64,000 nt of DNA. Source: Phycisphaerales bacterium. Its GTDB lineage: Bacteria; Planctomycetota; Phycisphaerae; Phycisphaerales; SM1A02. Positions 35,970-38,959 of this stretch are shown here, piece by piece. How positions within the stretch are numbered: the first letter of the stretch is position 1; every line of letters starts with the position of its first letter. Location of the stretch: contig JAQWTL010000007.1 of NCBI GenBank assembly GCA_029242715.1, forward strand, positions 248,001-312,000, read 5' to 3'. The notes beneath the pieces are model-generated. The model saw nothing but the letters and a program-made list of their open reading frames with translations. It searched no databases and was not told where the DNA came from. The position numbers were made by a program, and so were the translations under genes.

Positions 35970-36539
35970 TCAACTGCAGGCCTTGTAGCGAAAACAATCC
36001 ACCCTGTGATCATTCACCATGCCAACAGCCTGCATGAAGGCATAGCAGACGGTCGGCCCCGTCCATTTGAAACCTTCTGATTTCAATTCTCGAGCCATGG
36101 CTTCCGATTCTGGAGTGAAACCTGGCAGCTCACATTCCTGCGTCCTGCTGTTGACCATCGTCTGCCCCCCGACGTGAGACCAGAGCAACTCTGAGAACGG
36201 TCGTCCGGCCTCGGCAAGATCCAGATAACAGCGGGCATTGTTGACAGCAGCCTCGATCTTGGCTCGATTTCGGATGATCCGATCATCACCAAGGACCTTC
36301 TCTATCCGGCTGGGCTTCCAGTGGGCCAATCGAGTGGGATCCAGCTCATCCATGACATCGAGAATGTCTGACCGTTTGCGAAGAACAACCAACCAGGAGA
36401 GCCCGGACTGAAAGGTATCCAGCGTGAGCTTCGAAAAAAGGGCGATGCTGTCCCGGACGGGTACCCCCCATTCTTCGTCGTGGTACGCCATGTACTGCGG
36501 ATCTGTGCCACACCAGGGGCAACGGATAGGTTCAGTCAT
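35970..36539 (-). CDS. tag: 3-methyladenine DNA glycosylase I (Tag)
   Basis: 189 residues, the normal Tag length. The N-terminal RCPWCGTDPQYMAYHDEEWG gives the first zinc ligands (Cys and His), and the C-terminal NDHRVDCFRYK gives the last His and Cys. DTFQSGLSWLVVLRKR and the helix region with DDRIIRNRAKIEA match the helix-hairpin-helix fold that flips out alkylated adenine. The ATG at 36539 lies 6 bases from the minus-strand hexamer TACCCT. Only 24 bases separate it from the divergent ABC ATPase gene. Confidence 0.9.
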   Translation of the reverse strand: MTEPIRCPWCGTDPQYMAYHDEEWGVPVRDSIALFSKLTLDTFQSGLSWLVVLRKRSDILDVMDELDPTRLAHWKPSRIEKVLGDDRIIRNRAKIEAAVNNARCYLDLAEAGRPFSELLWSHVGGQTMVNSRTQECELPGFTPESEAMARELKSEGFKWTGPTVCYAFMQAVGMVNDHRVDCFRYKACS

Positions 36540-36545
36540 GCTGTG

Positions 36546-36555
36546 AGGGTATCCT
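36546..36555. promoter_or_regulatory. Overlapping divergent -10 elements between tag and the ABC ATPase gene
   Basis: AGGGTATCCT contains TATCCT for the plus strand (8 bases before the ATG at 36564) and TACCCT for the minus strand (6 bases before the ATG at 36539). The two share the central TA. The ten bases are nearly symmetric, so one site could start both leaderless transcripts. Confidence 0.55.
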
Positions 36556-36563
36556 GCCCTGCC

Positions 36564-37454
36564 ATGATTCGAGCCAGGGAACTTACAAAGACCTACAGGA
36601 ATACACCCGTACTTCGTGGTGTCACACTCGATGTGAGCCAGGGCACGATTCACGGCTTCGTTGGTCCCAATGGTGCTGGCAAGTCGACTTTTCTCAAGTG
36701 CCTGGTAGGAGTGGTTCATCCGGATTCCGGTGAAATCACTGTTGATGGCCTTGATGCACGGCGTCGTTCACTGGCCGTTCGATCACGGGTCGGGTACGCA
36801 CCGGCAGAAACATCTCTGTACCACCGCATGAAGGCAGGAGAACTCCTGGACTTTGCCATCCGTTATCACCCATCTCCAGATCTTCAGCGGGGACTGCAAC
36901 TGCTGGAGCAACTCGAAGTCCCGTCTCGCAGGCGTGTCGGCGAGCTGAGTCATGGCATGAAACGCAAGGTACTTCTGGCACAGGCCATCGCAAGCAACGC
37001 ACCTGTCATGATTCTCGACGAGCCGATGGAAGCACTGGACCCTGAGGCCCGACGAATCGTCGAAGACCTGCTGAGGAAAGAAGCCTCCAGTGGTCGTACG
37101 GTTTTCCTGTCATCACATGATCTCTACAGCACCCAGAGGCTGTGTTCTCGTGTCACTTTCCTGCACCGTGGTCGGGTTCTGAGAGACGGACCCGTTCACG
37201 ATCTGCTCAAGGGCATTCCAGGCAGACTCCATATTCAGTTTCGTGAAAGCATGTCAGCAAGCCGTCTTCCTTCCTCGGAAGGACTTGAATGGTCCGGCGT
37301 AGACATCAACTGGCAAGTTCGCTTTCATTGCCCTCTCGAAAAAGTCATGGCTCAGATAGCAAGTCTGCCAATTGCCAGCGTGCGGGATGACGGTGGTCAC
37401 CTCGAGGATCTCTTTGAAGATCTCTACCAGGCAGAAGTCGGGGTGGATTCATGA
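36564..37454 (+). CDS. ABC transporter ATP-binding protein
   Basis: 296 residues from the ATG at 36564. Walker A is GFVGPNGAGKSTFLK, the signature LSHGMKRKVLLAQAI, Walker B APVMILDEPMEALDPEA, and the H-loop FLSSHDLYSTQ. The signature has H in place of the second G of LSGGQ, which is common in ABC-2 exporters. A ~75-residue C-terminal domain follows. The stop overlaps the permease start by four bases (ATGA), so a homodimer with that permease is likely. The substrate is unknown. Confidence 0.87.
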   Translation: MIRARELTKTYRNTPVLRGVTLDVSQGTIHGFVGPNGAGKSTFLKCLVGVVHPDSGEITVDGLDARRRSLAVRSRVGYAPAETSLYHRMKAGELLDFAIRYHPSPDLQRGLQLLEQLEVPSRRRVGELSHGMKRKVLLAQAIASNAPVMILDEPMEALDPEARRIVEDLLRKEASSGRTVFLSSHDLYSTQRLCSRVTFLHRGRVLRDGPVHDLLKGIPGRLHIQFRESMSASRLPSSEGLEWSGVDINWQVRFHCPLEKVMAQIASLPIASVRDDGGHLEDLFEDLYQAEVGVDS

Positions 37455-38218
37455 GTCTTCTTCGACACTGGTTGCGGGACGCCTGGTGGATCCTGCTGGG
37501 TTACTTCATCATTCTCGAAGCCGCGTTGGTTGCCGCCATTCTGTACTGGCCAAAGTTCAATGAAAACATACCGGCCATCGCGAATATGGTCCCGTTCCCT
37601 GCCCTGCAGAGGCTCGTGGAATCCGTCGAGGTCGATGGCTACTGGCCATACCTGGCTGTGCAGCAATGGTTCAAGGGATGCAGCCTCTTCGGCCTGGCCG
37701 CTGCCGCTTTTCTCACAAGCGGAGTTGTTGCCCGCGATGCTGATCAGAAAACCGCGGAATTCCTGCTGTCTCGACCGCTCTCACGCAAGCGTGTGCTGCT
37801 GACACGTTGGATGGCGGCTTCCTGCCTCGTGATCATCCCCGTCTACATCACCTCGATTACCGCCATCTGGATTTCGCCTGCCGTTGATGAAAAACTCCGA
37901 TGGAGTGATGTGCTTCTTTCCAGCACGTTCATGTCGCTCTTCCTTCTGATGCTGGTGACATTCACGGCCATGATCTCGGCCATGAGCAGCCATCAACTGA
38001 AGGCTGGCATCATCCTGATCGGCTTTATCCTCCTGAACTTCGCGTTCTATCTCATCCAGGAAATCGATGAGATCAGCCTGTTCAAGACGGTTGACGTCTG
38101 GGTGTTCATGAATATCAAGGCAGGCAACTTCCCGTGGATCACGTCTGCCTCCTATGTCGGGGCAACCATCATCATGCTTCTGATTGCACTGGGTGTCTAT
38201 TCAAGACGGGATTTCTGA
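37451..38218 (+). CDS. ABC-2 type permease
   Basis: 255 residues with six hydrophobic segments and no enzyme motif. The segment DADQKTAEFLLSRPLSRKRVLLTRW is the typical coupling region of ABC-2 permeases (a helical turn between membrane segments). It starts inside the ATPase stop codon, which marks the pair as one transporter. pepE follows 27 bases later with its own strong GAGGAG ribosome site, so it may share the transcript. Confidence 0.82.
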   Translation: MSLLRHWLRDAWWILLGYFIILEAALVAAILYWPKFNENIPAIANMVPFPALQRLVESVEVDGYWPYLAVQQWFKGCSLFGLAAAAFLTSGVVARDADQKTAEFLLSRPLSRKRVLLTRWMAASCLVIIPVYITSITAIWISPAVDEKLRWSDVLLSSTFMSLFLLMLVTFTAMISAMSSHQLKAGIILIGFILLNFAFYLIQEIDEISLFKTVDVWVFMNIKAGNFPWITSASYVGATIIMLLIALGVYSRRDF

Positions 38219-38245: not shown

Positions 38246-38959
38246 ATGCGAGCCTTGCTTGGTAGTGGCGGTTTCAGAGGAGATGAGCGACGCGCCTTGT
38301 ACAACCAGGAAATGCGCAGACATTTCGGAGACGTGGACCGCATCCTCTTCATCCCCTATGCACTTCATGATCACGAGGCCTACACGAAACTCATGACCGA
38401 ACGTGGCCTTGACGCCGGCTACGAGATCGATGGCATACATCGCCATGAGGATCCGGTTGCTGCAGTGATGGAAGCGCCCGCGATCTCAGTTGGTGGCGGA
38501 AACACCTTTCGTCTGATTGCCGACCTTCACCGGCTCGGTCTGGTGGAGGCCATTCGAAATCGTGTTGTCAACGACGACATCCCCTACATGGGTGTCAGCG
38601 CGGGCACCAACGTCGCCTGTCCCACGATGCAGACCACAAATGACATGCCCATCACGCAACCAAGCAGTTTTCAGGCAATCGGCCTGGTTCCCTTTCAGGT
38701 CAATGCCCATTACTACGCGGGATCAATATGGGTCCGTCATGATGGGGAATTCGTCGAACACTTCGGTGAAACCCGTGACGACCGGATACGTGAATTTCAT
38801 GAGATGAACGACACGCCTGTCGTCGGTCTCTGGGAAGCCGGTTTCATTCGTGTCGAAGATGATCAGTTTGAACTGATCGGATCTTCAGCTCGCGTCTTCC
38901 GCAAAGGGTGCGATGCCTACGATGTGGAACCCGGATGCAAGCTCGTTGAACTCGCCTGA
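38246..38959 (+). CDS. pepE: Peptidase E, alpha-aspartyl dipeptidase
   Basis: 237 residues, close to the usual ~230. The nucleophile Ser is in YMGVSAGTNVACP near residue 118, and the pocket motif ISVGGGNTFRLI precedes it. Later NAHYY and VVGLWEAGF fit family S51, whose Ser-His-Glu triad cuts dipeptides with N-terminal aspartate. A GAGGAG ribosome site lies 8 bases before the ATG. Its last 43 bases overlap the 3' end of the convergent EamA gene. Confidence 0.88.
   Translation: MRALLGSGGFRGDERRALYNQEMRRHFGDVDRILFIPYALHDHEAYTKLMTERGLDAGYEIDGIHRHEDPVAAVMEAPAISVGGGNTFRLIADLHRLGLVEAIRNRVVNDDIPYMGVSAGTNVACPTMQTTNDMPITQPSSFQAIGLVPFQVNAHYYAGSIWVRHDGEFVEHFGETRDDRIREFHEMNDTPVVGLWEAGFIRVEDDQFELIGSSARVFRKGCDAYDVEPGCKLVELA

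Follow-up and report, generated by a model that had tools for sequence, protein, structure and literature searches.

The 24-nucleotide gap between two divergent genes of a Phycisphaerales bacterium probably serves as a single sigma70-type bidirectional promoter, and both of the mRNAs made from it would be leaderless. The gap lies in the window, the stretch of 64,000 nucleotides analysed here, which belongs to contig C41 of genome G000 (an assembly of 3.2 Mb in 46 contigs). To its left, on the minus strand, is tag (35970–36539), an open reading frame of 189 amino acids for DNA-3-methyladenine glycosylase I that matches PF03352 (2.5e-65) and scores 227.8 bits against TIGR00624, slightly below the cut-off of 232.5. 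To its right, on the plus strand, an open reading frame for an ABC transporter ATPase of 296 amino acids (36564–37454; PF00005, 5e-29) begins a presumed rightward operon. The next gene on this strand encodes an ABC-2 type permease (255 amino acids, 37451–38218; PF12679, 8.1e-13) and shares its first 4 nucleotides with the end of the ATPase gene. After a gap of 27 nucleotides comes a plus-strand gene for a peptidase family S51 protein (237 amino acids, 38246–38959; PF03575, 1.3e-49) that possibly belongs to the same operon.

The ATG of tag occupies 36539–36537 on the minus strand and that of the ATPase gene 36564–36566 on the plus strand, leaving 36540–36563 common to the two genes. Within this gap, AGGGTATCCT (36546–36555) reads TATCCT on the plus strand (36550–36555) and TACCCT on the minus strand (36551–36546), with the two hexamers overlapping at TA (36550–36551). 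The sequence-only reading had placed the starts 24 nucleotides apart and both hexamers at these positions, and its coordinates proved exact. The site thus has the opposite-strand −10 overlap of a bidirectional promoter, in the TA that TATCCT and TACCCT share. Each side also carries TANNNT about 12 bp ahead of the start codon, the mark by which leaderless bacterial genes are recognised (Zheng et al. 2011, PMC3160421): the first T of the proposed tag −10 is at −12, which is the modal position in the genus, and that of the proposed ABC operon −10 is at −14. The latter hexamer lies inside TATCCTGC (36550–36557, plus strand), a run of eight consecutive invariant columns 5′ of the ATPase gene.

Of all the window's 24-mers, 0.105% have TANNNT at −12 to −16 on both strands, as do 0.114% of shuffles of the gap. 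The sigma70 −10 consensus has A at the fourth position of the hexamer, which both TACCCT and TATCCT lack, and the 8-nucleotide spacer between hexamer and start codon on the ABC side is slightly long. A two-hexamer sigma70 scan of positions 36200–37000 returned no promoter-like site (0.3 expected), which is weak evidence because no −35 signal was found in the leaderless class of this genus, made up of 224 TANNNT sites. As a separate observation, the symmetric pattern ANNNTANNNT is under-represented in the window, with 17 matches against 62 (s.d. 8.7) in dinucleotide shuffles, a scarcity that perhaps stems from codon constraints or from avoidance of stray promoters.

The focal genus, g1, comprises G000 and the five other genomes compared with it, G001 to G005. 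TANNNT was counted in samples of each genome, with starts picked from nothing but coding score and start-codon type, and hence blind to the signal; the starts came from a simple purpose-made gene finder that failed to call tag in G000 and G002. In all five genus genomes sampled, the motif peaks at −12 and drops to 0–2 matches at −11. Between −16 and −12 there are 72 matches against 15.4 expected in G000 (543 genes), 42 against 7.8 in G001 (302 genes), 36 against 4.5 in G002 (247 genes), 38 against 7.8 in G003 (252 genes) and 36 against 3.8 in G004 (246 genes). By this measure, about a tenth of the genes in the genus appear to be leaderless. A genome from another genus of the same family (G014, GC 67%; C1:1–200000, L167–L176) likewise peaks at −12, with 20 matches in 156 genes where 2.5 were expected; leaderless use therefore probably extends beyond the focal genus. 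In a genome from another family of the order (G145) the peak is weak (14 against 7.5; 135 genes). Among the 224 genus sites, G is preferred just ahead of the hexamer and C or A within it, and the focal hexamers are ordinary members of this set, at the 49th (ABC) and 71st (tag) percentiles. A strong leaderless signal in a lineage of Planctomycetota known here only from metagenome assemblies bears on how gene starts are called there.

Leaderless genes are not the only class in the genus. Shine-Dalgarno-like 5-mers at −15 to −9 number 156 in G000 against 26.3 expected, a count in which one gene may have more than one match, and their outnumbering of TANNNT (72 at −16 to −12) indicates that both modes of initiation coexist. 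This abundance lends something to the idea that both focal genes have distant promoters and Shine-Dalgarno leaders, AGGGTATCCT being a pair of overlapping ribosome-binding sites, since GAGGG does lie upstream of the ABC gene and AGGA upstream of tag. However, contig C41 has its Shine-Dalgarno peak at −14 to −10, whereas the closest runs of purines start farther out, at −19 for ABC and −16 for tag, and no Shine-Dalgarno sequence was found at a usable distance before either gene. GAGGG, moreover, is not conserved, whereas TATCCTGC is. We therefore consider this explanation very improbable.

Orthologs of both proteins are present in G001 to G005 (70–77% identity for tag, 68–79% for ABC), and in every member of the genus except G001 the genes lie side by side in divergent orientation. 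The closest named relatives with the ABC gene are Phycisphaerae or Phycisphaerales metagenome assemblies (isolates NAT149, SP4365 and ALOHA_ZT_39), whose names suggest a marine origin. Gap lengths are 24 nucleotides in G000 and G002, 44 in G005, 48 in G004 and 49 in G003. When the sequences are aligned on the hexamer, TATCCTGC before the ABC gene is invariant in all six members, compared with 1 of the 16 other columns. It recurs in a more distant ABC relative (L092), and G012 has TATCGT at the equivalent place. TANNNT also precedes tag in all six, at −12 (G000, G002), −13 (G005), −14 (G001), −16 (G004) and −17 (G003). Gaps of 44–49 nucleotides contain two separate −10 elements, and those of 24 nucleotides contain overlapping ones. 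The overlapping form of the tag half-site is common to only two genomes, G000 and G002, and the four additional bases conserved in it are weak evidence.

For the ABC gene, the start used is the sole start codon up to an in-frame stop in G001, G002 and G005; upstream GTG or ATG alternatives occur in G000, G003 and G004. For tag, there is one candidate within 90 nucleotides (or up to an in-frame stop) in every member other than G004, which has several. The tag frame of G000 stays open into the ABC gene, where it offers GTG 36653 and ATG 36719 as further starts, and the alignable portion of the protein starts at 36539.

The invariance of TATCCTGC, the constant presence of TANNNT before tag and the genus-wide peak together lend comparative support to the earlier proposal, made from the letters alone, of a double −10 from which both genes would be transcribed without leaders. 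The ABC hexamer is conserved far better than the tag hexamer, as might be expected if the ABC operon alone used the site. The minus-strand TACCCT would then come from TATCCT and chance, and the tag mRNA would have a leader and start from a promoter within the coding sequence of ABC. AGCG before TATCCT also generates ANNNTANNNT around the ABC −10 in G001 and G005, where the minus-strand reading is not at the tag start. Set against this, TANNNT is found at −12 to −17 before tag throughout the genus, even in G001 despite a 1-kb insertion, it stands at exactly the modal −12 in G000 and G002, and tag has no Shine-Dalgarno sequence at normal spacing.

The neighbouring genus g36 bears on the same question. 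Its three genomes (G040/L015, G068/L011, G089/L012) have gaps of 19–21 nucleotides and an ABC −10, TAGGCT, at −13; two have a GTG start for the ABC gene. No TANNNT was found at −18 to −11 before tag in these genomes, whereas G000 and G002 keep both −10 elements in a short gap. Tag must then be expressed otherwise in g36 despite an equally short gap, and the same could hold at the focal site. Overall, we regard use of the site by the ABC operon alone as unlikely. In the further genus g35, G039 (gap of 41 nucleotides) has TANNNT at −12 before both genes.

The near symmetry of AGGGTATCCT and the shortness of the common gap would also suit an operator, bound by a regulator common to the two genes, in place of two promoters. 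Relatives, however, keep only the TATCCTGC half while the other half varies, which is how a directional −10 behaves, and the ABC element persists in G001, where tag is not its neighbour. An operator is accordingly the least probable of the explanations considered, and we retain a promoter for both genes as the preferred reading.

In G001, the tag and ABC genes are about 1 kb apart, with an open reading frame of 307 amino acids without a Pfam match between them (L034, 440–1500). GAAAAGAATCCTA occurs on both sides of this insert, which means that one identical −10-like sequence precedes tag and another precedes the insert.

Tag loci were examined in 30 cases, of 130 genomes with a tag match, using a script with a gap limit of 200 nucleotides. 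A divergent P-loop gene adjoins tag in 10 of the 30, namely five of the six g1 genomes, two of three in g35 and three in g36, and in none outside those genera. G001 does not count here because its ABC gene is beyond the limit. One of the g35 cases (G103) was counted with a gap of 98 nucleotides, or 44 from an upstream start that has no support, and G007 has a P-loop open reading frame beside tag but no qualifying start.

The 24-nucleotide pair, G000 and G002, forms a single branch in both the tag tree (support 94/92) and the ABC tree (97/96), the other branches of the genus being poorly resolved. A single shortening in their common ancestor is therefore the simplest account. Because the sister species with gaps of 44–49 nucleotides have separate −10 elements, the fused site probably arose by shortening, and we infer a loss of about 20–25 bp between two once-separate elements as its probable origin. 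ANNNTANNNT is already present at the ABC −10 in G001 and G005, so a deletion could have brought a pre-existing minus-strand −10 to the tag start.

Divergent pairs with TANNNT on both sides were also counted across the genus. The 251 pairs are a sum over five genomes in which orthologs are counted separately, and among G000, G002, G003 and G004 the focal pair enters the counts for G003 only: the finder missed tag in two of these genomes, and in G004 its far-upstream tag start swallows the ABC gene. With signal-blind starts, 11 of the 251 pairs are doubly marked (TANNNT at −17 to −12 on both sides, any gap), compared with 0–3 of 251 for 13 controls, six of them off-position and seven off-motif. 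With signal-aware starts the number is 30 of 251, and eight control motifs give 0–12, the highest being TNNANT (12) and ATNNNA (11); TNNANT is itself part of the −10 consensus. A third count, which admitted alternative start codons, was dropped as biased, since the control ATNNNA reached 48 of 251 against 47 for TANNNT, probably because that motif overlaps start codons.

With signal-blind starts, no doubly marked pair is separated by 35 nucleotides or less (0 of 251), which indicates that very compact pairs are rare. At this gap length, alternative starts give 10 pairs against 0–5 for controls, and signal-aware starts give 3 against 0–2. With no clear excess over controls, the case for compact pairs is that of conservation alone. 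Two leaderless genes in one such site had been called unusual in the sequence-only reading. For doubly leaderless divergent pairs in general this was overstated, given the 11 doubly marked pairs and, as described below, three conserved compact pairs and an example from Mycobacterium tuberculosis; for gaps of 35 nucleotides or less, the rarity stands.

Conservation of the core between species was seen in three compact pairs besides the focal one. A pseudouridine synthase gene and a gene judged by eye to be lipoprotein-like diverge across a gap of 25 nucleotides in both G000 (L054 of contig C41, about 427–457) and G002 (C8, 37397–37427), with TANNNT at −17 and −15 and a conserved symmetric core, TATGCTA, that represents the 18-bp type of bidirectional arrangement. 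An alpha-amylase gene and a solute-binding-permease fusion gene are 31–32 nucleotides apart around ATCGTATAGGGT in G000, G001, G002 and G004 (L054, 12692–12729). Genes for a Dabb protein and a SAM methyltransferase share the core CGACTATACTCG in gaps of 24 nucleotides (G001 C22 near 380074, L166) and 21 nucleotides (G003 C39 near 31288, L130). The amylase and Dabb pairs are less certain because their start codons differ between genomes. Two further candidates were dropped, one (G002, 40130) because its left start lacks support from the G000 ortholog and the other (G000 C30, 145272) because its ortholog was not found in the sampled contigs. A pair with TTG and GTG starts (G003, 112660) was left out.

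Leaderless initiation would permit compact intergenic regions that serve two leaderless mRNAs. A broader reading can be assembled on this basis, in which roughly a tenth of genes are leaderless in this marine genus and in one or more further genera of its family, this allows a recurring intergenic architecture of 21–32 bp with overlapping or abutting −10 elements, and the tag/ABC site came about from two separate leaderless promoters through a deletion of about 20–25 bp that fused their −10 elements. Taken jointly, these propositions are tentative, with prospects slightly short of even. If they are true, the genus displays successive stages by which a bidirectional promoter comes into being.

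At the focal site itself, RNA polymerase would bind AGGGTATCCT in either of two orientations, TATCCT directing synthesis of the ABC ATPase-permease mRNA to the right and TACCCT that of the tag mRNA to the left. Because the two −10 elements have the T−12/A−11 base pairs in common, their start sites should be about 23 bp apart. From geometry only, the tag transcript is predicted to begin at 36539 (minus strand), the A of its ATG, 7 nucleotides past the hexamer. The ABC operon transcript is predicted to begin within 36561–36564 (plus strand; nominally 36562), where 36561 and 36564 are purines, with a leader of 0–3 nucleotides. The predicted spacing is 23 bp by the 7-nucleotide rule (36562 versus 36539), or 22–25 bp if transcription starts at purines. 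Both mRNAs would then be translated by direct recognition of a 5′-terminal AUG. If this is right, the site is near the minimum length for a divergent pair in which neither gene gives up its −10, and the species compared here suggest a way in which separate promoters turn into a shared one.

The overlap leads us to expect one polymerase at a time at AGGGTATCCT, and the cost at ordinary low activity is probably small. The sequence-only reading held that the two genes should compete, and findings from E. coli do not support obligate competition: at bidirectional promoters there, one side can be repressed when its partner is strongly activated (PMC12825309). By extension, tag and the ABC operon would be expected to compete only under strong activation of either.

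TANNNT-type leaderless genes have been described in Deinococcus-Thermus (PMC12340547). The term 'Planctomyc' has no match in the main text of that paper or of PMC3160421, and Phycisphaerae appear in a table of anti-Shine-Dalgarno types in PMC10783764, where they are not given as leaderless. In the part of the open-licence literature searched, we found no earlier statement of a leaderless signal in Planctomycetes or Planctomycetota, and no direct report of a divergent, doubly leaderless pair on a shared −10; the phrase 'both leaderless' is used in another sense where it occurs in PMC6742748 and PMC3616915. The focal site is like the leaderless genes of PMC3160421 and PMC12340547 in the distance of TANNNT from the start codon, and no −35 element and no Shine-Dalgarno sequence was found at it. 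It differs from them in that two signals overlap on opposite strands.

That overlap is what the site shares with bidirectional promoters known from E. coli and from other prokaryotes (Warman et al. 2021, via PMC10268837 and PMC12825309). Such promoters are defined by divergent starts 7–25 bp apart (PMC10268837), with spacings of 18 bp commonest and 10 and 23 bp also common (PMC12825309). The predicted focal spacing of 23 bp therefore falls in a named common class and not in the 18-bp TANNNTA type. Occupancy by one polymerase at a time, a property of the known promoters (PMC10268837, PMC12825309), is at the focal site expected from the overlap. The starts of the focal site are predicted, as is the leaderless state of both products; 'leaderless' has no match in the main text of either paper.

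The EcoRV restriction-modification promoter pair (PMC5333194) is likewise divergent, with overlapping polymerase sites and no joint occupancy. It differs in being controlled by a C protein, and the leaderless transcript described in that paper is that of AhdI, whose features the EcoRV system lacks. Another parallel is Rv1130 (prpD)/Rv1129c of M. tuberculosis, adjacent divergent genes whose transcripts are both leaderless, with starts mapped to the start codons, in a report that terms closely juxtaposed divergent promoters common (PMC3898074). The tag/ABC pair resembles it as a predicted divergent leaderless pair and differs in genes and phylum. The focal site is thus probably a 23-bp-type bidirectional promoter for two leaderless genes, an arrangement of known kind whose value is comparative and not categorical.
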